64,000 nt of DNA from Antarctobacter sediminis. Lineage in GTDB: Bacteria; Pseudomonadota; Alphaproteobacteria; Rhodobacterales; Rhodobacteraceae. The translations under genes and the position numbers were made by a program. The first letter of the stretch is position 1. Every line of letters begins with the position of its first letter. Of this stretch, positions 48,534 to 59,535 are shown piece by piece. Below the pieces are notes generated by a model. The model had not been told where the DNA came from. It searched no databases and saw only the letters and a program-made list of their open reading frames with translations. The DNA is taken from contig NZ_JAHUZG010000001.1 in assembly GCF_019218285.1 (NCBI RefSeq), positions 186,001-250,000 of the forward strand, read 5' to 3'.

Positions 48534-49712
48534 TCAGCTTGCGTGATCGTAGGCCCGTTCGCCATGCACGCTGATGTCCAGCCCGTTGACCTCGGTCTCT
48601 TCGTCGACCCGCAGCGGGAACACCGCCTTGACCACGAAGATCAGAACCACGGTCACGACTGTGGTGAAAACACCGACAACCACCAGCGATCCCAGTTGCG
48701 CCGCCCAAGACCCAAGGCCAAAGACCGCGATCATGATGGTGCCAAAGATCCCGCCAACTCCGTGGACGGCAAAGACGTCCAGTGTGTCGTCGATCTTTAG
48801 CTTGTTGCGGATCAGGTTGACGGCTTCCTGACAAAGGATGCCAGCCACCGCGCCGATGATCAGCGCCTGCACCGGACCGACAAAGCCAGAGGCCGGGGTG
48901 ATCGAGGCGAGGCCCGCGATCGTGCCCGTCACCATGCCCACCATCGAGGCTTTGCCGAACTTCACCTTTTCCCACAGCGCCCAGGTCAGCGAGGCCGCTG
49001 CCGCGCTCAGGTGTGTCACGGTCAGCGCCATGGCCGCGCCACCGTCCGCCGCCAGTTGCGAGCCGCCGTTGAAGCCGAACCAGCCGACCCAAAGCATCGC
49101 CGCGCCGATCATCACGTAGCCGGGGTTATGCGGGGGATGGGTGGTGGTGCGGCGCGGACCAAGGAAAACCGCGATCAGCAGCGCCGCAAGGCCAGCGGTT
49201 TCATGCACCACGATGCCACCGGCAAAATCCTTGACCGCCTCACCGAACAGCGGGGTATCTCCGGCCAGCAGGCCGCCGCCCCAGACCCAATGCGTCACCG
49301 GCGCGTAACACAGCAACATCCACAGGCCCGAAAACACCAGCACAAAGCCAAAGCCCACGCGTTCTACGTAGGCGCCCACGATCAGCGCCGGGGTGATGAT
49401 GGCAAAGGTCATCTGGAAGGCAAAGAACAGCACTTCGGGCAGGGTGCCCGCCAGCGTGTCGGCGTCGATGCCGTTCAGAAACGCCTTGCCCAGACCGCCC
49501 CACAGGGCGTTGCCCTCACCAAAGGCGATGGAATAGCCCAAGGCGAACCAGAGCACGCTCATCAGGCAGGCGATGGCATAACAATGCATAAAGACGCTGA
49601 GCACGTTCCGTGCCCGCACAAGGCCGCCGTAAAACAGCGCCAGCCCCGGCAGCGTCATGAACAGCACAAGTGCTGTGGCTACGATGATCCAGGCGGTGTC
49701 CGCTCCGTTCAT
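48534..49712 (-). CDS. amt: Ammonium transporter
   Basis: 392 residues with eleven membrane segments of the Amt/Rh family. The channel histidines are in VVHETAGLAALL and FAVHGVGGIFGT. It imports ammonium and is normally gated by a GlnK protein, whose gene is not adjacent here. The start MNGADTAWI follows GGAGGG. Upstream, two copies of a 19-base AT-cored palindrome also found before dusB-ntrBC suggest nitrogen control. Confidence 0.95.
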   Translation of the reverse strand: MNGADTAWIIVATALVLFMTLPGLALFYGGLVRARNVLSVFMHCYAIACLMSVLWFALGYSIAFGEGNALWGGLGKAFLNGIDADTLAGTLPEVLFFAFQMTFAIITPALIVGAYVERVGFGFVLVFSGLWMLLCYAPVTHWVWGGGLLAGDTPLFGEAVKDFAGGIVVHETAGLAALLIAVFLGPRRTTTHPPHNPGYVMIGAAMLWVGWFGFNGGSQLAADGGAAMALTVTHLSAAAASLTWALWEKVKFGKASMVGMVTGTIAGLASITPASGFVGPVQALIIGAVAGILCQEAVNLIRNKLKIDDTLDVFAVHGVGGIFGTIMIAVFGLGSWAAQLGSLVVVGVFTTVVTVVLIFVVKAVFPLRVDEETEVNGLDISVHGERAYDHAS

Positions 49713-49828
49713 ATCCCATGTCCCTCCGTTGATTGGCGGGCACAAAGACGGATTCGACTGCGGATAAAAACAGCAGGCATGTTTTGAGGCGCGTAAAAAC
49801 CCGGCCTTTTGCAAACTGCACAAAATAT

Positions 49829-49847
49829 GTGCTTAAAAATTTGGCGT
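49829..49847. promoter_or_regulatory. AT-cored palindrome, amt copy 1 (candidate NtrC site)
   Basis: GTGCTTAAAAATTTGGCGT matches the copy before dusB in 16 of 19 positions. Its centre is 126 bases before the amt start. A GCAC-N7-GTGC inverted repeat (49818-49832), the classical NtrC half-site spacing, overlaps its left end. Confidence 0.55.
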
Positions 49848-49935
49848 TGCGCGGGTTTTGGGCGGTTCGGAAACCGCCAATATGCGTGGGGTTTCAAGTA
49901 TCGCTGACCGAACGGGCTGTGCGCCGCTTGATGAT

Positions 49936-49954
49936 TTGCCTAAAAATTAGTCAC
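49936..49954. promoter_or_regulatory. AT-cored palindrome, amt copy 2 (candidate NtrC site)
   Basis: TTGCCTAAAAATTAGTCAC matches the dusB copy in 16 of 19 positions and lies 107 bases from copy 1, close to ten helical turns. The 283-base gap between amt and cinA holds these two sites and a small hairpin at 49861-49878. Confidence 0.55.
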
Positions 49955-49995
49955 ATTTGGGTCAAGGACGGCCTGTCAGTCACTGCGGCAGCCCG

Positions 49996-50463
49996 TTATT
50001 TCAACGCCGCAAGGATCATCGACAGCGCATGTTCGGTTGCGGCAGCGCGAACCGCTGCACGGCCAAGCGCACCGTGTTCGATGGTCTCGCTTGTCACCCC
50101 TCGCGGGGTGGCAAGGCCGTAACACACGCGGCCTTCGGGTTTGAACTCTGACCCGCCGGGGCCGGCGATGCCGCTGATGGCGACGGCAATATCGGCGCCC
50201 GCTCCCGACAGCGCGCCCTGCGCCATCTCGCGCACAACTTCCTCGGACACCGCACCATGCGCGTCCAGCGTCGCGGGGGACACGCCCAACATTTCGGTCT
50301 TGGCGGTGTTGGAATAGGTGACAAAGCCGCGTTCGAAAATATTGGACGATCCGGCCACATCGGTAAGCGCCGCGGCAACCTTGCCGCCTGTACAGCTTTC
50401 GGCACAGGTGATGTGCAGCCGCCTGTTCATGGCCGCCTCCAGGATTTGCTCGGCAAGGCTCAC
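49996..50463 (-). CDS. pncC: CinA-type nicotinamide-nucleotide amidohydrolase
   Basis: 155 residues, the stand-alone C-terminal domain of CinA: ITCAESCTGGKVAAALTDV near the start and ISGIAGPGGSEFKPEG later. It deamidates nicotinamide mononucleotide in NAD recycling. Translation starts at GTG, overlapping the pgpA stop by four bases. It is the last gene of ispDF-pgpA-cinA. Confidence 0.88.
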   Translation of the reverse strand: MSLAEQILEAAMNRRLHITCAESCTGGKVAAALTDVAGSSNIFERGFVTYSNTAKTEMLGVSPATLDAHGAVSEEVVREMAQGALSGAGADIAVAISGIAGPGGSEFKPEGRVCYGLATPRGVTSETIEHGALGRAAVRAAATEHALSMILAALK

Positions 50464-50945
50464 ATCAATACTCCATGAGAAAGACCGGCCAGCAGGATGG
50501 AAACGACGGCGGCAAAGACCCCGGCGACCACATCATCCAGCATGACCCCCAAAGGCGTGCCCATGCGGTCGGCCCGGCCCACCAGCCAGGGTTTCCAGAT
50601 GTCGAAGAGGCGGAACAAGAGGAACCCCGCCAGCCATCCGGGCCATAGCCGCCAAAGTTCGACGGACATGAGCATCGCACCGTAACTGACGGGAAAGATT
50701 GCGATCCATTGGCCCACAAGCTCGTCGATGACAACCCAGGAGGGATCTTCGCCATGGCCCTGCGCGGTCAGCCGGTCTACGGCCCACCAACCAAGGGCAA
50801 AGGCGACAAGCGTCAGCGCCAGAAGCAACCAAAAACCACCAACAAGGTGGACACCATAGGCCAGCGGCAGCGCCGCCAGCGATCCCCAGGTGCCGGGGGC
50901 CGGTCGCAGAAAACCTGCGCCGCCCAGTGCCGCGAACCACCTCAT
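50460..50945 (-). CDS. pgpA: Phosphatidylglycerophosphatase A
   Basis: 161 residues with four hydrophobic segments. The PgpA pattern [15 protein letters not shown] and [11 protein letters not shown], then [10 protein letters not shown] and [10 protein letters not shown], is complete. It removes phosphate from phosphatidylglycerophosphate to make phosphatidylglycerol in the inner membrane. It overlaps ispDF upstream and cinA downstream by four bases each. Confidence 0.93.
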
Positions 50946-52072
50946 GCCGCCACCAGAGTCGCGGTGGCCAGCGCGGCGATCCCTTCTTCGCGGCCGGTAA
51001 AGCCCAGCCTTTCTGAAGTTGTGGCCTTGATCGATACGCGGGACGGGTCCAGCGTCATGATCTCGGCCATTCTGGCGGTCATTTCGGCCGCGTGCGGACC
51101 AACTTTGGGCCGTTCGCAGATCAGGGTGAGGTCGATATTGCCAATGTCAAAGCCGCGCGACCGGGCCAGATCGACCGCATGGCGCAGAAAGATCTCGCTC
51201 GCGGCGCCTTTCCATTGCGGATCTGAAGGCGGGAAGTGGCGGCCAATGTCGCCCTCTGCCATTGCGCCGTATAATGCGTCAGTGACCGCGTGCATGCCAA
51301 CGTCGGCGTCGGAATGGCCTTTGAGTTTATGTGTATGCGGGATCTTTACGCCGCAGAGGATCACGTGATCGCCTTGCTCAAAGGCATGCACGTCAAATCC
51401 GTTGCCCAGTCGAATGTCCATTTGTCCTCGCAACTGTTTGGCGGCCCTGAGGAAATCCTCCGGGCCGGTAATCTTCAGATTGGCTTCGTCGCCGGGGACG
51501 ATGGCCACATCCATGCCCGCCGCCCGAGCCACCGCCACATCATCCGCCGCACCGCCAGGATGAGCGCGATGCGCCGCAAGGATGCCTGCGTAGTCAAACC
51601 CTTGCGGGGTTTGCGCGCGGTACAGGCCTGCGCGGTCGCGGGTGCCGCTGACCAGGTCATCGTCGCCGGTCCAAAGCGCGTCCGTCACGGCCAGCGCAGG
51701 GGCCGCGCCGGGATGATGGTCCAGTGCGTCGATCACCGATCTGATCACCCGGGGGGCGATGCAGGGGCGGGCGACATCGTGGATCAGCACCTTTTGCGGG
51801 GCGCGCGGCTCCAAAGCTTCCAGCCCGGCGCGAACAGAGGCAGAGCGTTCCGCGCCGCCTGCCACCAGTTGAACCTCCAGCCCCTTGGTCACGGTGGTGG
51901 CAATGTCGCGATCATCTGGGTGAATCACCATGACCAACGGGCCGAATCCGGCAAAAGCCTCCAACGTCCAGCGCGCCACCGGTTTTCCGGCAATCTCGCG
52001 CCATTGTTTCGGCTGACCGCCGCCCGCCCGCGTGCCGCGTCCGGCGGCCACGATGATGATCCCAGTCTGCAT
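50942..52072 (-). CDS. ispDF: Bifunctional IspD/IspF enzyme of the MEP pathway
   Basis: 376 residues. Residues 1-215 are IspD, 2-C-methylerythritol 4-phosphate cytidylyltransferase ([18 protein letters not shown] nucleotide loop). Residues 216-376 are IspF, the cyclodiphosphate synthase ([11 protein letters not shown] with metal ligands Asp and His, and [16 protein letters not shown]). The fusion is common in alphaproteobacteria. The start MQTGIIIV follows ACGGAAAAG. It is divergent from dusB. Confidence 0.96.
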
Positions 52073-52138
52073 GGCTTTTCCGTCTTTTGCCGGTTTGTCA
52101 TAGGCGCAGCGGCGAGGCGGCGCAATCACGCGGGGAAA

Positions 52139-52157
52139 GTGCCTAAAAATTAGGCGC
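52139..52157. promoter_or_regulatory. AT-cored palindrome before dusB-ntrBC (candidate NtrC site)
   Basis: GTGCCTAAAAATTAGGCGC contains the perfect inverted repeat GCCTAA-AAA-TTAGGC (52141-52155). It lies 112 bases before the dusB start and 67 before the divergent ispDF start. Two near copies precede amt. Confidence 0.6.
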
Positions 52158-52268
52158 GACGATCTGCGTCGCCCTAGAAATGGGCCTCTCAGATTGAAGA
52201 AAACACTGGTTCCTCATAAATCTGACTTGAACAAAAGAGTTGAACGCCATCGCACAAGGACTGGGCAT

Positions 52269-53249
52269 TTGGGTTTTGATCTAGGAGATCGGCAGATCAC
52301 GGAACCGGTCTTGCTGGCGCCACTGGCGGGAATCACCGATCTGCCGTTCCGAACGCTGGTTTCGCGGTTCGGTGCCGGGCTGGTGGTGTCCGAGATGATT
52401 GCCAGCGGCGAGTTCCTGACCGAACGCCCCGGAACACGGGAAAAGGCGGAATTGGGCGCGCAGATCGAAAACACCTCGGTCCAGATTGCGGGACGCGAGG
52501 CCGGGCCGATGGCCGAAGCCGCGCGCATGGTCGCGGACATGGGCGCGCGGGTGATCGACATCAATATGGGGTGTCCGGCCAAGAAAGTGACCGGAGGATG
52601 GTCCGGGTCGGCGCTGATGCAAGTGCCCGACCACGCGCTGCGCCTGATCGAGGCGGTCGTCGCCGCGGTGGATCTGCCGGTGACGCTGAAGACCCGTCTG
52701 GGGTGGGACAACGACTGTCTGAACGCCGCGGAAATCGCCCGGCGGGCCGAGGCGGCGGGTGTGCGAATGATCGTCATTCACGGTCGCACGCGCTGTCAGT
52801 TTTACAAGGGGTCGGCCGATTGGGCGGCCATATCGGAGGTGAAGAACGCGGTGCAAGTACCTGTAATCGCGAATGGAGATGTCGTCAGCCCCGCCACCGC
52901 GCGACAGGCGCTGGCGCGCTCTGGCGCAGATGGTGTGATGATTGGGCGCGGCGCGCAGGGCGCGCCCTGGCGGCTGGCTCAGGTGGCGCATGCCCTTTAT
53001 GGCGCACCGGCGCCGGTCGTGCCGCAAGGCACCGATCTGGTCGACATGGTCTCGGGCCATTACGACGCCATGCTGGCGTTCTATGGCAAGACTCTCGGCA
53101 ACCGCGTCGCCCGCAAACATCTGGGATGGTACATGGACGAGGCCGGGACCCCGGCAGCCTTGCGCAAACGCCTGTTGACCGAGCGCGATACCGGCGCCGT
53201 TCTGAACCTGTTGCCCGAGGCGCTGTTGACCCCGGCGGAGGCAGCGTGA
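52269..53249 (+). CDS. dusB: tRNA dihydrouridine synthase B (NifR3)
   Basis: 326 residues from a TTG start with AAGGA eight bases upstream; no ATG or GTG lies at the family N-terminus, and a longer TTG start lacks a ribosome-binding site. The FMN barrel signature LLAPLAGITDLPF opens the protein and the catalytic Cys is in NMGCPAKKV. It reduces uridine in the tRNA D-loop. In Rhodobacter this gene, called nifR3, leads the ntrBC operon, as here; its stop overlaps ntrB by one base. Confidence 0.93.
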   Translation: MGFDLGDRQITEPVLLAPLAGITDLPFRTLVSRFGAGLVVSEMIASGEFLTERPGTREKAELGAQIENTSVQIAGREAGPMAEAARMVADMGARVIDINMGCPAKKVTGGWSGSALMQVPDHALRLIEAVVAAVDLPVTLKTRLGWDNDCLNAAEIARRAEAAGVRMIVIHGRTRCQFYKGSADWAAISEVKNAVQVPVIANGDVVSPATARQALARSGADGVMIGRGAQGAPWRLAQVAHALYGAPAPVVPQGTDLVDMVSGHYDAMLAFYGKTLGNRVARKHLGWYMDEAGTPAALRKRLLTERDTGAVLNLLPEALLTPAEAA

Positions 53250-54331
53250 TGGGGGACGGGGATCTCAATATCTGGTCGTCGCTGCCGGTTCCGGCAATCC
53301 TGATCGACGAACATGACCGCATCGGAGACCTCAACCCGGCGGCCGAGGGGTTCATGAACAACTCGGCCAAATGGCTGGTAGAGCAACCGATCTGGGATCG
53401 TCTGGCGGTGGACGCACCGCTAGAGGAAAGTTTTGCCCGCGCCCGGGCGCAGGGTACGCCGTTGTTCGTCAATGATGTTGACGTGGGCACCGGATCGCGC
53501 CCGCCGCTGGTCTGCAACCTGCAAATCGCGCCGCTGTCGGGCAAGCCGGGCTGGATGGTCATGTTGATTTCGCCGCGCGAACTGGCGGGACGCATGACGC
53601 AAAGCCATTCGGTCAAATCGGCGGCGAAATCGGCCATCGGCATGGCCGAGATGCTGGCCCATGAGATCAAGAACCCGCTGGCGGGCATCACCGGTGCGGC
53701 GCAGCTTCTCAGCATGAGCCTTGGTCCGGAAGACCTTGAATTCACGGATCTTATCGTGGCCGAGACCCGGCGCATCGTAAAACTGCTGGAACAGGTCGAG
53801 CAATTCGGCAACCTGTCGGCCCCCGAGGTGCGCGAGGTCAATATTCACGATGTGCTGGACCGGGCGCGGCGGTCTTCGCTGCTGGGCTTTGGCGCGCACA
53901 TGAAGATCGTCGAGGATTACGACCCCTCGCTTCCGATGGCGCTGGGAGACCCCGACCAGTTGTTGCAGGTGGTGCTGAACCTGATCAAGAACGCCTCCGA
54001 GGCGGCCGATGGCAAGGAGGGCGGCACGATCCGCCTGCATACCTTCTACGAGCACAGCTTTCGCCTGCGCCGCGCCGATGGCAGCGGCCAGACCCTGCCT
54101 TTGCAGGTCGAGATCATCGACGACGGCCCGGGCCTGCCGCCGGACATCAAGGGCGACATCTTTGATCCCTTTGTGTCTGGCAAGGAGAACGGCACCGGGC
54201 TTGGACTGGCGCTGGTCAGCAAGATCATCTCGGACCATGACGGGTGGATTTCTGTCGACAGCGTCCCGGGCAAGACGGTTTTTCGCATTTCGCTGCCGCG
54301 GGCGCCCGCGGCACCAAAGGAGAGCAGCTAA
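53249..54331 (+). CDS. ntrB: Nitrogen regulation sensor kinase NtrB
   Basis: 360 residues. A PAS domain (about 5-115) precedes the dimerisation helix with phosphorylated His138 (LAHEIKNPLAG) and the ATPase domain with N box (NLIKNASEA), DDGPGLP and GTGLGLALV. No membrane segment, so it is cytoplasmic and senses nitrogen status through PII proteins. GGAGG precedes the ATG. It phosphorylates NtrC, encoded immediately after with no gap. Confidence 0.95.
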   Translation: MGDGDLNIWSSLPVPAILIDEHDRIGDLNPAAEGFMNNSAKWLVEQPIWDRLAVDAPLEESFARARAQGTPLFVNDVDVGTGSRPPLVCNLQIAPLSGKPGWMVMLISPRELAGRMTQSHSVKSAAKSAIGMAEMLAHEIKNPLAGITGAAQLLSMSLGPEDLEFTDLIVAETRRIVKLLEQVEQFGNLSAPEVREVNIHDVLDRARRSSLLGFGAHMKIVEDYDPSLPMALGDPDQLLQVVLNLIKNASEAADGKEGGTIRLHTFYEHSFRLRRADGSGQTLPLQVEIIDDGPGLPPDIKGDIFDPFVSGKENGTGLGLALVSKIISDHDGWISVDSVPGKTVFRISLPRAPAAPKESS

Positions 54332-55702
54332 ATGGATGGCACAGTACTGGTCGCCGATGACGACCGCACGATCCGCACGGTTCTGACGCAGGCTTTGACG
54401 CGGGCGGGCTGCAAGGTGCATGCCACCTCCAGCCTTACGACGCTGATGCGCTGGGTCAGCGAAGGCAAGGGCGACGTGGTGATTTCCGATGTGGTCATGC
54501 CCGATGGCAACGGGCTTGAGATGCTGCCCAAGATTTCCGAGGACCGTCCCGGGCTGCCGGTGATCGTGATTTCGGCGCAGAACACGATCATGACCGCGAT
54601 TCAGGCCGCCGAGGCCGAAGCCTATGATTACCTGCCCAAGCCCTTTGACCTGCCGGACCTGATGAAGCGGACCGCGCGGGCGCTGGAAAACCGCAACCGG
54701 ACGCCCAAACGCGAAGAACCGGTGGTTGGCGCAGATGAGCCGGACGAACTGCCGCTGGTGGGCAAGACGCCTGCGATGCAGGGGCTGTACAGGCTGGTGG
54801 CCCGCGTGATGAACACCGATCTGCCGGTCCTCATCACCGGCGAGAGTGGCACCGGAAAATCGCTGATTGCCCGTGCGTTGCACGATTTTTCGGACCGGCG
54901 GACGCTGCCGTTCATCACGGTGACCGGTGCGGACCTCTCTGATCTGGACGGCCCCGCGCGGGTTCTGGCGCGGGTCAAGGGCGGCACGCTGCTGATCGAC
55001 GAAATCGCCGACATTCCTGATGAGTTGCAGGCACGGATCGTGCGCATGATGGATGTGCCGGGCGATCACGTGCCACGCTTTCTTGCCTCGTCGCAGCATG
55101 ATCCGCAGTCGCTGATCGAGGGCGGAAAAGTGCGGCAGGACCTGTTCTATCGTCTCGACGGGGCGGCCATCGCGGTGCCATCCCTGCGCGAACGGGTCGA
55201 GGATATTCCGCTGCTTGCCGAACATTTCCTCAACCGGGCCGAGCGGGAAGGAGCGCCGAAACGTTGGCTGTCCGAAGGGGCCGCGGAACTGTTCCGCGTT
55301 TATTCGTGGCCGGGCAACGTTCGCCAGTTGGAAAACGCGGTGCGCCGCCTGTCGCTGACCAGCCGGGCCGAAGAGATCACCCGCGCCGAGGTCGAAGCGG
55401 TACTGGGCAACCAGCCCGAAACCGGTCCGGTTCTGCGCGGTGGCGACAGCGACAAGTTGGGCGAAAGCGTCGGCCGCCATTTGCGGCGCTATTTCGATCT
55501 CCATGGGGCGATGTTGCCGCCGCCGGGCCTGTACGGACGCATCCTGCGCGAGGTCGAAGCCCCGCTGATCGAGATCGCGCTGGAAGCGACCGGTGGCAAT
55601 CAGGCCAAATGCGCCGACCTTCTTGGCATCAACCGCAATACCCTGCGCAAGAAGATCACCGATCTGGATATTCGCGTGACACGCCGCCGCAAGTTGATGT
55701 AA
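54332..55702 (+). CDS. ntrC: Nitrogen response regulator NtrC lacking GAFTGA
   Basis: 456 residues: receiver domain with Asp53, an AAA+ domain with Walker A GESGTGKS at 170-177 and [13 protein letters not shown] (Walker B), and a C-terminal Fis-type helix-turn-helix ([20 protein letters not shown]). Between the strand after Walker A (PFITVTGAD) and Walker B only a short stretch remains; the loop carrying GAFTGA, which contacts sigma-54, is deleted. This matches Rhodobacter capsulatus NtrC, which activates sigma-70-type promoters. AAGGAGA precedes the ATG. Confidence 0.94.
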
Positions 55703-55812: not shown

Positions 55813-58092
55813 GTGGCCACACGGGCACGCACCATGTTCAGGTTCCCGACGTGGGAGACATTCTCACGCCTGCGTCGGACAAGGCTTTTTCAGAATATCA
55901 TCGCATTGTTGCTGGTGGCGCTGGGGCCTGCGCTGGCCTTTGCCACCTTCATGGTGCTGGGGCCGCTGGATCAGGGGGCAGGGGCGCTTAGCCTGCGGTT
56001 GGTTCTGCTGGCGGATCTGGTCTATGTCCTGCTGCTGGCGGCGCTGCTCTTGGCGCGTGTGGCGCGCATGGTGGCGGATCGTCGGGCGCAATCGGCGGGA
56101 TCCCGCCTGCACCTGCGGCTGACCGCGGCCTTTGCGCTGATGGCGCTTTTGCCGACGGTCACGGTGGCGGTTTTCGCGGTTCTGACGATCAACATCGGGC
56201 TGGAGACATGGTTCTCGAGCCGGGTGCAGAACGTGGTGGGCGCATCGCTGTCCGCCGCCGAAGCCTATGAGGCCGAAAGCCGCGCCGGGCTGATTCAGGA
56301 TGCGCGCGCGCTTGCGGGTTTTCTTGATGCCAACCGCCGCCGCAACTTTGTCATGGACGACGGCGAACTGCGGCAGGTGCTCAGCCAGGGGCAAGCGCAG
56401 ATCCAGCGAGGGCTGCGCGAGGCCTTTGTGATCGACAGCGCCGGAGAGATCCGCGCCCGCGGCGAACGTTCCTACCTGTTTGATTTCGAAAAGCCCGGTC
56501 AGACCGATTTCCTGCGCGCCGACGCCGAGGGCGTCACGCTGATCCCGGATTGGGACAACAACGAATTCCGCGCGCTGCTGCCGCTGGAGGCCTTTGCCGA
56601 CCGGTATCTCTATATCAGTCGCGAAGTTGACGGTCAGATCCTGAACCTGCTGGACGAAACGCAGGAAACCGCACGCTTTTATCAACAACAGGAAAGCGAA
56701 CGGGGGCGGCGGCTTTTTGACTTTGCGCTGCTCTATCTTGGCTTTGCGCTGTTGCTGATCCTTGCGGCCACCTGGGCGGGCCTTTGGTTCGCCGAACGGC
56801 TCAGCCGCCCGGTGGGGCGTCTGACCGGGGCGGCGCAGCGTGTCGGTTCAGGCGATCTGGACGTGCAGGTTCAGGAAGAAGAGGGCGACGACGAGATTTC
56901 CATGCTCGGGCGCTATTTCAACCAGATGACCCGCCAGCTGAAGGCACAGCGCGAAACGCTGTTGGAAAACACCCGCCAGATCGAACGCCGCCAGCGCTTG
57001 TTCGACTCTGTTCTGTCTTCGGTGACTTCGGGCGTGGTCGGTCTGGATGCCGAAGGAAAGGTGACCTTCGTCAACCGCTCGGCAGAGCGGTTGTTGGGAT
57101 GGCATGAAACGCATCGCGCCGTGCCTTTGGGTGTGGCCGTGCCAGAGTTTGGCGCGCTGTTTGACCGGTTGCGGACCGAAACGCTGGAAACCGCGCAGGA
57201 AGAGGTCAAGGTCAGCCGCGAAGGCCGTCTGGAACACCTGCTGGTGCGCCTTTCCACGCGCCGCCGCGACGATCGTTCGCTTGAGGGGTATGTTGTGGCC
57301 TTTGACGATGTGACCAACCTTGTCAGCGCCCAGCGGATGGCGGCATGGGGCGATGTGGCCCGCCGCATCGCGCATGAAATCAAAAACCCGCTGACCCCGA
57401 TCAAACTGTCGGCGGAACGCATCCAGCGCAGTTTCGCGACCAAGCTGGAGGGGCGCGACGTCGAACGGGTCACCGACCTGACCGGACGGATCGTGCGCCA
57501 GACGGAAACGCTGAAACGGATTGTCGACGAATTTTCGCGCTTTGCCCGGATGCCGGAACCGGATCGCAAACCCGAGGACGTGGGTGCGCTGTTGCGCGAG
57601 GCTGCGCTTTTGCAGGAAACGGGGCAGCCGGGCATCCGGTTTCACATCGACATTCCCGACACGCCCATGTGGGCGGATCTGGATGCGGGCATGATCGGCG
57701 GGCAGGCTTTCTTGAATCTCATCAAGAACGCGGGCGAGGCGATCCAGAGCCTGCACGACAAGGGCACGCCCGAGGATTACCACCCCGAGGTGCGCGTTTC
57801 GGCGGAGGTGGCCGAAGATGGCCGCGCCGAAATCCGCATCATGGACAATGGCATCGGCCTGCCCGAAGACCGGGCGCGGCTGTTCGAACCCTATGTGACC
57901 ACCCGCGACGAAGGCACCGGCCTTGGCCTGCCGATCGTCAAGAAGATCATCGAGGAACACGGTGGAACGCTGGCGCTGGAGGATGCGCCCGCCTTCTCCG
58001 AAGGTGCCCATCGCGGCGCCATGGCAGTTATCCGGCTGCCGCTGAACCCCGCGGCCGAGGCTGTTCCGCCGACCGCATTGGAAAGTGTTTGA
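55813..58092 (+). CDS. ntrY: Nitrogen/redox sensor kinase NtrY
   Basis: 759 residues from GTG with GAGG ten bases upstream. Membrane helices at about 27-48, 58-80 and 100-122, a large extracytoplasmic region to about 310, another helix near 312-335, then HAMP, a PAS domain, the phosphorylated His521 (IAHEIKNPLTP) and the ATPase domain with NLIKNAGEA and GTGLGLPIV. It pairs with NtrX, next downstream after 27 bases. Confidence 0.94.
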   Translation: MATRARTMFRFPTWETFSRLRRTRLFQNIIALLLVALGPALAFATFMVLGPLDQGAGALSLRLVLLADLVYVLLLAALLLARVARMVADRRAQSAGSRLHLRLTAAFALMALLPTVTVAVFAVLTINIGLETWFSSRVQNVVGASLSAAEAYEAESRAGLIQDARALAGFLDANRRRNFVMDDGELRQVLSQGQAQIQRGLREAFVIDSAGEIRARGERSYLFDFEKPGQTDFLRADAEGVTLIPDWDNNEFRALLPLEAFADRYLYISREVDGQILNLLDETQETARFYQQQESERGRRLFDFALLYLGFALLLILAATWAGLWFAERLSRPVGRLTGAAQRVGSGDLDVQVQEEEGDDEISMLGRYFNQMTRQLKAQRETLLENTRQIERRQRLFDSVLSSVTSGVVGLDAEGKVTFVNRSAERLLGWHETHRAVPLGVAVPEFGALFDRLRTETLETAQEEVKVSREGRLEHLLVRLSTRRRDDRSLEGYVVAFDDVTNLVSAQRMAAWGDVARRIAHEIKNPLTPIKLSAERIQRSFATKLEGRDVERVTDLTGRIVRQTETLKRIVDEFSRFARMPEPDRKPEDVGALLREAALLQETGQPGIRFHIDIPDTPMWADLDAGMIGGQAFLNLIKNAGEAIQSLHDKGTPEDYHPEVRVSAEVAEDGRAEIRIMDNGIGLPEDRARLFEPYVTTRDEGTGLGLPIVKKIIEEHGGTLALEDAPAFSEGAHRGAMAVIRLPLNPAAEAVPPTALESV

Positions 58093-58119: not shown

Positions 58120-59535
58120 ATGAGCGACATTCTGATCGTCGACGACGAGCGCGATATCCGGGAATTGATCGGCGACATCCTTGAGGACGAGGGCTTTGCC
58201 ACCCGTCTGGCCGGAAACAGCCAAGAGGCGATGGCCGAAATCAACGCCGAACCGCCCGCGCTGCTGATCCTCGACATCTGGCTGAAGGACAGCAAGATGG
58301 ACGGGATCGACATTCTCAAGACCGTCAAGCGCGACAACCCCGACATTCCCGTGGTCATCATTTCCGGCCACGGCAATATCGAAATCGCCGTGGCCGCCAT
58401 CAAGCAGGGGGCCTATGACTTTATCGAAAAGCCGTTCAACATCGACCAGCTTCTGGTGGTGATCCGGCGCGCGATGGAAACCTCTCTGCTGCGGCGCGAA
58501 AACCTGCAACTGAAGCGGGGCGAGGTGAAATCCGCCGAGATGATCGGCGAAAGCGCGGCCTTCCGCGCCTTGCTGAGCCAGCTGGAAAAAGTGACGAAAT
58601 CGAACGGTCGCGTGATGCTGACAGGTCCGGCGGGATGCGGCAAGGAGGTCGCGGCGCGTTATATCCACGCGCAATCGGGCCGCGCCAAATCGCCTTTCGT
58701 CACGGTCAACTGCGCCGGGGTGGAACCCGAAATGATGGAGGCCATGCTTTTTGGCCGCGAAACCGCCAAGCGCGGGGTCGAGCCGGGGCTGCTGGAACAG
58801 GCGCATGGCGGTGTGATCTATTTCGACGAAGTGGCAGACATGCCTTCGGGCACACAGTCCAAGATCCTGCGCGTGCTGGTCGATCAGCAATTCACCCGCG
58901 TGGGTGGCAATGACAAGGTGCGGGTGGATCTGCGGGTGATTTCCTCGACCAACCGCGACCTGCAAGAGGAAATCGCCGCCGGGCGGTTCCGCGAGGAGCT
59001 ATACCACCGTCTGAACGTGGTCCCGATCGCGGTGCCGTCGCTGGCTGAGCGACGCGAGGATATTCCGGTTCTGGCAGGCCACTTCATCGGGCAATACAAC
59101 CAGTCGCAAGGGCTTCCGATCCGGGAACTGACCGAAGAGGCCGTGGCGCTGATGCAGACGATGACCTGGCCCGGCAACGTGCGCCAGTTGAAGAACCTCG
59201 TGGAACGGGTGCTGATCCTTGGCGATGGCACCGGCCCGATCGAAGCACGCGAACTCCCTCAGGAAACCGCTCCGGGCGAAGACGCGGACGGGCGTGTTGT
59301 CCTGTCGGGCACGCTTGCGACTCTGCCGCTGCGCGAGGCGCGTGAGGCATTCGAGCGGGAATACCTGCTGACGCAAATCAACCGGTTCGGGGGCAATATC
59401 TCGCGGACGGCGTCTTTTGTGGGGATGGAACGTTCGGCCCTGCACCGCAAGCTCAAGTCGCTTGGGGTTGTGACCTCGGCCAAGTCGGGTGCGCGGGTGG
59501 CGCGGCTGGACGAACCCTTTACCGAAGCTTCCTGA
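58120..59535 (+). CDS. ntrX: Response regulator NtrX lacking GAFTGA
   Basis: 471 residues: receiver domain with Asp52, AAA+ domain with Walker A GPAGCGK, Walker B GGVIYFDEVADMP and arginine finger region RFREELYHRLN, and a C-terminal Fis helix-turn-helix. As in other alphaproteobacterial NtrX proteins, the GAFTGA tip of loop 1 is missing: after AMLFGRE the chain goes to TAKRGVEPGLLEQ. AGAGG precedes the ATG. Partner of NtrY. Confidence 0.94.
   Translation: MSDILIVDDERDIRELIGDILEDEGFATRLAGNSQEAMAEINAEPPALLILDIWLKDSKMDGIDILKTVKRDNPDIPVVIISGHGNIEIAVAAIKQGAYDFIEKPFNIDQLLVVIRRAMETSLLRRENLQLKRGEVKSAEMIGESAAFRALLSQLEKVTKSNGRVMLTGPAGCGKEVAARYIHAQSGRAKSPFVTVNCAGVEPEMMEAMLFGRETAKRGVEPGLLEQAHGGVIYFDEVADMPSGTQSKILRVLVDQQFTRVGGNDKVRVDLRVISSTNRDLQEEIAAGRFREELYHRLNVVPIAVPSLAERREDIPVLAGHFIGQYNQSQGLPIRELTEEAVALMQTMTWPGNVRQLKNLVERVLILGDGTGPIEARELPQETAPGEDADGRVVLSGTLATLPLREAREAFEREYLLTQINRFGGNISRTASFVGMERSALHRKLKSLGVVTSAKSGARVARLDEPFTEAS

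Follow-up and report, generated by a model that had tools for sequence, protein, structure and literature searches.

The 64,000-nucleotide stretch of Antarctobacter sediminis DNA analyzed here (the window; contig NZ_JAHUZG010000001.1, positions 186,001 to 250,000) carries closely similar AT-cored palindromes upstream of amt, coding for an ammonium transporter, and upstream of dusB-ntrBC, which includes the gene for the nitrogen regulator NtrC. Which protein reads these sites, and where else does it find them? The palindromes are best regarded as predicted sigma-54-independent operators of the NtrC encoded in the window itself, a reading to which a probability of about 0.92 is assigned. The best-conserved copy in the family, however, lies outside the window, upstream of uvrC, in an element that looks like a DnaA-reactivating sequence (DARS) and may be a switch for chromosome replication.

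The 19-bp palindrome GTGCCTAAAAATTAGGCGC is found exactly at 52139–52157, before dusB-ntrBC, and two near copies with three mismatches each (16 of 19 positions kept) lie before amt, at 49829–49847 and 49936–49954, which spaces them 107 bases apart. When up to three mismatches to GTGCCTAAAAATTAGGCGC were allowed, these were the only three matches in the 64 kb; shuffled sequence gave a mean of 0.01 (maximum 1), and none of 100 shuffles had three. The classical GCAC-N7-GTGC form is represented by TGCACAAAATATGTGCT at 49817–49833, which overlaps the copy at 49829–49847. Thus, the three palindromes and the overlapping classical site, as laid out in the preliminary description of this DNA, are confirmed. 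A position matrix was built from the sites upstream of dusB in 80 relatives and in the window itself; above 9 bits, it located four sites in the window, namely the three palindromes and TGCACAAAATATGTGCT, and one, at 10.6 bits, in the reversed window. The regulatory features are as follows (strand is given only where one applies).

49829..49847: amt-proximal palindrome, candidate NtrC-type operator; centre ~125 bp before the amt ATG; 16/19; 18.3 bits
49817..49833: overlapping TGCACAAAATATGTGCT, GCAC-N7-GTGC geometry; centre ~113 bp before the amt ATG; 14.1 bits
49936..49954: amt-distal palindrome, candidate NtrC-type operator; centre ~233 bp before the amt ATG; 16/19; 24.1 bits
52139..52157: palindrome upstream of dusB-ntrBC, candidate operator 1; exact; 23.6 bits; centre ~121 bp before the dusB start
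52194..52222, plus strand: likely housekeeping promoter of dusB-ntrBC, TTGAAG-N17-TAAATC, assigned by eye
52251..52267: CGCACAAGGACTGGGCA, candidate operator 2; overlaps the Shine-Dalgarno sequence AAGGA and ends just before the dusB TTG at 52269

The genes concerned are arranged in the order amt (minus strand), ispDF and others, then dusB, ntrB, and ntrC (plus strand), an ntrY-type open reading frame (ORF), and ntrX. The start codons of amt (ATG, complement of 49710–49712) and dusB (TTG at 52269) were chosen by eye.

48534..49712, minus strand: amt, ammonium transporter (PF00909, E 9e-102; TIGR00836 above cut-off, 378 versus 343 bits)
52269..53249, plus strand: dusB (nifR3), tRNA-dihydrouridine synthase (PF01207, E 6e-94)
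53249..54331, plus strand: ntrB, histidine kinase (HisKA, HATPase_c; named by position)
54332..55702, plus strand: ntrC, response regulator with Fis-type DNA-binding domain (Response_reg, Sigma54_activat, HTH_8)
55813..58092, plus strand: ORF for an ntrY-type histidine kinase, named mainly from its position
58120..59535, plus strand: ntrX (NF051870 above cut-off, 750 versus 600 bits)

In the window NtrC, a receiver domain is combined with an ATPase domain, which was matched in two stretches, and with an HTH_8 domain of the Fis type. No GAFTGA was found in its translated sequence, so that it does not qualify as a GAFTGA-loop activator of the classical sigma-54 enhancer type; NtrC proteins without this loop have been described for Rhodobacterales and Caulobacter (PMC10274813). 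While the preliminary description named no published consensus of exactly the palindrome's form, a consensus of this form is in print: the RegPrecise-derived NtrC site (T/C)GC(C/A)N4TTN2T(G/A)GCA, reported for Paracoccus denitrificans before glnBA, amtB, nasTS, and ntrBC, where mutating the nasT site abolished induction (PMC5424462). The window thus shares the 17-bp YGCM...TRGCA palindrome, the target genes, and the GAFTGA-less NtrC with the sigma-54-independent NtrC regulon of Rhodobacterales (R. capsulatus, P. denitrificans; NtrC of RegPrecise). It differs in the 107-bp spacing of the amt sites, one of them overlapped by a classical site, in a second dusB operator placed on the Shine-Dalgarno sequence, and in that the family's best-conserved copy stands at uvrC. 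The amt and dusB-ntrBC sites add a further member to an established regulon, with a minor novelty at dusB.

Under nitrogen shortage, phosphorylated NtrC would bind the palindromes via its Fis-type domain and, because it lacks the sigma-54-contacting GAFTGA, would be expected to work with the housekeeping RNA polymerase. At amt, with operators ~125 and 233 bp upstream and the nearer one doubled by the classical site, the outcome would most likely be activation under nitrogen limitation. At dusB-ntrBC, where operator 1 lies above the likely promoter and operator 2 on the ribosome-binding site and early transcribed region, it would most likely be autorepression, as the overlap of operator 2 with the Shine-Dalgarno sequence also suggests. 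NtrC binding, the sign of regulation, and the position of the promoter we infer from the sites, their conservation, their regulon company, and the missing GAFTGA. NtrC of Caulobacter is reported to be an autorepressor, from chromatin immunoprecipitation sequencing and RNA sequencing (PMC10274813), and dusB-ntrBC of Sinorhizobium meliloti is reported to be negatively autoregulated by NtrC (PMC10746234). Both systems share with the window the order dusB-ntrB-ntrC, and in both NtrC binds in the dusB promoter; here, by contrast, two candidate operators flank the likely promoter.

Conservation of the motif before dusB and amt, whose absence in relatives the preliminary description would have counted against its proposal, was evident at both genes. 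Of the 81 dusB loci (the relatives and the window, on whose sites the matrix itself had been trained), 73 had an upstream site above 8 bits, which in 58 of them was centred 94–125 bp before the start. Upstream of amt, a site above 9 bits was present in 24 of the 28 relatives in which amt was found on that side, often with a partner site ~27, 31, or 58 bp away. In five loci (L022, L026, L028, L056, and L083), a stretch resembling TGCCTCTTTTTTCCGCA recurs closer to amt than the operators, ~54–63 bp before the start; it is perhaps a promoter or leader element. Boxes of the TTG-N17 type resembling the dusB-ntrBC promoter were seen by eye at like positions in some relatives. The second palindrome, on the dusB Shine-Dalgarno sequence, was scored as present if the final 45 bp held all six of its arm bases; this was so in 41 of 81 loci, whereas 200 shuffles gave a mean of 2.6 and a maximum of 7. 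Of the 36 loci with both operators, 26 separate them by 91–93 bp; in the window, the distance is 111 bp. All six arm bases are kept in L034 and L079, and five of six in L055, in an operator 2 containing neither AAGG nor AGGA, which speaks against explaining the arms simply by the ribosome-binding site.

Searching the organism's own genome with the AT-core pattern YGCHYAWWWWWTRDGCR returned four exact sites, against none for the reversed pattern, and these precede dusB-ntrBC, glnK-amtB, nasT (the product of which contains an ANTAR domain), and uvrC. With one mismatch, 21 sites were found versus 7 for the reversed pattern, including those of amt and one of glnB (C1:149239); the latter had initially been read from the ORFs as preceding nnrD, an assignment that was dropped in favor of glnB on the other strand. 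Across 25 family genomes, exact sites numbered 56 versus 6 reversed. Among the 52 of these whose context was read, 20 precede nitrogen genes: dusB (6), glnB, glnK, or amt (7), nasT (5), and, judged by eye, a nitrate-transporter-like gene (2). The scattering without link to nitrogen genes that would have refuted the initial proposal was thus not observed, although the motif also occurs beyond these genes, uvrC alone accounting for 13 of the 52 sites. Taken together, the GAFTGA-less NtrC, the published consensus, the regulon-wide targets, and the conservation support the initial proposal of sigma-54-independent NtrC operators.

A number of observations weigh against this assignment. The three window sites fit the published string imperfectly (by eye, on the better strand, 10 of 11 specified bases at dusB, 10 at the amt-proximal and 9 at the amt-distal site), the 107-bp spacing at amt differs from the common spacing of relatives, and operator 2 reaches only 4.5 bits in the window, its core being bound by the Shine-Dalgarno sequence. 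The best NCBIfam model for the window protein is ntrC, yet with a score below the cut-off (410 versus 559 bits), which would be expected for a loop-deleted form but is not proof of one. In S. meliloti, activity of PdusB is reported to rise in nitrogen-poor medium despite negative autoregulation (PMC10746234). Of the 52 exact family sites, 32 are not before nitrogen genes; apart from those of uvrC, these comprise 4 before phosphatase genes and 15 others, either unassigned or, by eye, of mixed kinds. Outside the family, YGCHYAWWWWWTRDGCR was less clean (24 versus 10 reversed across 16 genomes from elsewhere in the class). The form originally proposed for scanning, GYGCCTAA-N3-TTAGGCRC, did not serve its purpose: without its outer bases (GCCTAA-N3-TTAGGC), it gave one exact match in the own genome (dusB) and five with at most one mismatch, and with at most two mismatches 57 sites versus 259 in the reversed control, so that it was not enriched. 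The N3-core form is a poor scanner; the AT-core form alone separates signal from noise.

Some sites before other genes were noted in passing. The four phosphatase sites (L139, L143, L149, and L161) precede a gene resembling that of mannosyl-3-phosphoglycerate phosphatase, and the one protein tested passed TIGR01486; possibly, this link reflects a nitrogen-free osmolyte under NtrC control. A one-mismatch palindrome in the own genome (G000:C1:524866-524882; L105) precedes a gene for a transglutaminase/DUF2126 amidoligase (Pfam), and in one relative (L167) a palindrome precedes a gene that resembles it by eye.

The copy at uvrC was followed through the family by searching for UvrC in 61 genomes. 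Of 60 matches, the best 30, no two of them from one genus, were examined as loci: 29 carried a palindrome scoring more than 9 bits and 27 carried TT(A/G)TCCACA; where both occurred, their centres were 74 bp (25 loci) or 75 bp (2 loci) apart, with the palindrome 142–290 bp from uvrC. (The own-genome element is at G000:C3:573498-573600, L099 1501-1600; further loci are L225-L254 and L302-L331.) For alignment, 17 further uvrC loci were added to the 30; of these 47, two failed the palindrome or length cut and 10 did not show the central box at exactly +70, which left 35 rows for an ungapped alignment. Left out were six rhizobial, Chelativorans, and Labrenzia loci without the element and one weak second match. 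The 35 rows were, thus, chosen for the palindrome and the central box, whereas no selection had been applied to the remaining two boxes. In these rows, an IHF-like site, TCA(A/G)N4TTR, immediately precedes the palindrome (invariant CA and TT in at least 33 of 35), a weak DnaA box lies 3 bp upstream of the central box, and an inverted box lies 6 bp downstream of it. The inverted box is conserved (G85 in 35, T86 in 31, G87 in 35, G88 in 35, and A89 in 34 rows); the upstream one, box III, is conserved at T58 (29), T59 (33), C62 (32), C65 (33), and A66 (31) and weak in the middle. Behind the DnaA boxes, a CTTG box is likewise conserved, its distance from them being constant. In 20 further genomes, most Rhodobacterales carried the element, as did Limibaculum; the exceptions were Salipiger bermudensis (8.4 bits), Palleronia (9.1 bits, in another place), and Cereibacter and one metagenome-assembled genome, both without an exact box. 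Among the same 20 genomes, it was not found in the rhizobial, Chelativorans, and Labrenzia loci; in the rhizobial loci displayed, the upstream gene runs almost into uvrC.

The TTATCCACA boxes had at first suggested that the uvrC element might be the origin of replication, oriC. No switch of GC skew occurred there in G014, G008, or G018, as judged from sparse 20-kb samples, and G002 and G090 had no readable skew; the element is, thus, probably not oriC. At gathering thresholds, Rfam returned no match to a known RNA before uvrC in the five loci searched, although a small RNA of a new kind might still lie there. A second DnaA-box pair, TTGTCCACA-N6-GTGGA, is present in the own genome at G000:C2:188411-188430.

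The central and inverted boxes together, TTRTCCACA-N6-GTGGA, were found in 66 of 190 alphaproteobacterial genomes, against 3 for the reversed pattern. In 30 of these 66 genomes, the loci were inspected: 25 lay just upstream of uvrC, with the central box 25–293 bp from its start, and a palindrome above 9 bits was present at 74–76 bp in 23 of the 30, to which four with a weak best palindrome at 75–76 bp may be added; the full IHF-like form was present in 17. This architecture resembles that of DARS1 and DARS2 of Escherichia coli, where three DnaA boxes (read by eye in E. coli) are likewise arranged as 9-3-9-6-9, with the last one inverted. As in DARS2, an IHF-type site is found on the side of box III, its distance from the central box being ~93 bp in the uvrC element and 98 bp in DARS2, and, as in DARS1, a uvr gene is nearby. 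The arrangement differs from DARS2 in that the NtrC-type palindrome stands at 74–76 bp, between the boxes and the IHF-like site, while the IHF-like match of DARS2 has the opposite direction and, in the DARS2 stretch scanned, the only exact 15-mer match for Fis was located at a distance of 134 bp. IHF-like and NtrC/Fis-type sites both accompany the uvrC core, but in an order unlike that of DARS2. Fis and IHF are reported to activate DARS2, and the DARS2 core has been called gammaproteobacterial (PMC4245941). On this comparison, the uvrC element looks like a DARS and is a candidate switch for chromosome replication.

The serious rival to this assignment is that the uvrC copy is an ordinary promoter operator, through which NtrC, IHF, and DnaA would regulate transcription of uvrC and nothing else. 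It would account for the CTTG box at a fixed distance behind the DnaA boxes, and uvrB of E. coli has been reported to be DnaA-regulated (PMC6015884). The DARS1-like box cluster of E. coli itself lies in the bioD-uvrB stretch. (This cluster we take to be DARS1.) Nevertheless, the IHF-like site, the palindrome, and the three DnaA boxes keep a single ungapped register in the 35 rows, whereas the distance of the palindrome from uvrC in the family spans 142–290 bp, and the same holds for the 25–293 bp between central box and gene in the 25 class-wide loci: the register of the element is fixed and its distance to the gene is not. Since, moreover, its 9-3-9-6-9 geometry is that read in both E. coli DARS, a role confined to uvrC transcription appears on balance doubtful, if by no means far-fetched.

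If the uvrC element is DARS-like, could NtrC take the place there that Fis has at DARS2? In five alphaproteobacterial genomes (G037, G187, G030, G026, and G232; L362-L366), dusB is followed by a small ORF corresponding to the DNA-binding domain of NtrC only and then by ntrY, ntrB and the rest of ntrC being missing; ntrX follows ntrY in G037, G187, G026, and G232, the G030 stretch ending earlier. All five lone domains passed Pfam HTH_8, and the one tested against NCBIfam matched Fis models best, below their cut-offs. A sixth candidate, in G186 (L367), was dropped, because the contig stops within its ORF and a truncated NtrC may be encoded there. The arrangement resembles dusB-fis of E. coli and Salmonella, where dusB also precedes a Fis-domain protein; the difference is that in the window the Fis-type domain is part of NtrC, while it stands alone in the five other genomes. 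Three of these five keep a palindrome above threshold at the DnaA boxes. The NtrC content of genomes was compared among the matches listed, with small numbers and several fragmentary assemblies: the palindrome was present at the element in 16 of 17 assessable genomes with a full-length NtrC match (18 in total; G132 ends too early), in 4 of 6 with a lone NtrC-like domain only (in one of the 4, G221, the domain is 37% identical), and in 2 of 5 with neither form (G111 and G110). G186, its match cut by the contig end, has the palindrome.

The palindrome also fits the Fis form G-N2-YR-N2-W-N2-YR-N2-C, and Fis itself reportedly derived from NtrC (Morett and Bork, in 1998). A relation of the two proteins has been noted elsewhere (PMC7166090; PMC7482072), dusB-fis of Salmonella is reported to be autorepressed by Fis (PMC7482072), and NtrC of Caulobacter is reported to bind upstream of hdaA, the gene for a DnaA inactivator (PMC10274813). 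These points, together with the lone domains and the action of Fis and IHF at DARS2, suggest that NtrC may be the Fis of alphaproteobacteria, acting at the DARS-like uvrC element as Fis does at DARS2. This analogy is put forward tentatively, as possible rather than probable, and is made slightly less likely by the G186 match, which ends with its contig.

The palindromes might instead belong to another Fis-domain regulator, above all to NtrX, encoded just downstream. NtrX has an HTH_8 domain too and shares the locus, and G111 and G110 have a strong palindrome at the DARS-like element with neither a full-length NtrC nor a lone NtrC-type domain among the matches listed (both assemblies are fragmented, and that of G110 is 71% complete). 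The motif, however, precedes the classical NtrC targets glnB, glnK-amtB, nasT, and ntrBC and is tied to NtrC by the P. denitrificans work (PMC5424462), and the five lone domains behind dusB match the NtrC DNA-binding domain with 48–57% identity, whereas an NtrX query had no match over those ORFs. Ownership by NtrX, or by a further regulator of this type, is therefore improbable. Mere coincidence has a negligible chance, for although promoters of GC-rich genomes often have AT-cored palindromes nearby and the loose N3 pattern is not enriched, the shuffle expectation of 0.01, the excess of 56 over 6 in the family, and the conservation upstream of dusB and amt all contradict it.

Among accessible titles and abstracts on uvrC with NtrC or oriC, on DARS with uvrC or outside enterics, and on Fis-like proteins with NtrC and dusB (subscription papers being mostly outside reach), none was found that reports the uvrC element. 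According to a review, DARS-like sequences are shared by many species of proteobacteria (PMC10380432), so that an alphaproteobacterial DARS may not be entirely new to the literature. A nitrogen-regulator-type site inside a DnaA-box element with the core geometry of E. coli DARS, found across alphaproteobacterial families, matters more than the window sites themselves. The lone NtrC-type domains behind dusB mirror dusB-fis of E. coli and suggest a possible origin of the link between Fis and replication control; if NtrC does act in the role of Fis, dusB-fis and the Fis-DARS2 pair of E. coli would descend from, or parallel, dusB-ntrBC and an NtrC-DARS pair. The uvrC element, thus, offers a testable route by which nutrient status may reach the initiation of replication in alphaproteobacteria.

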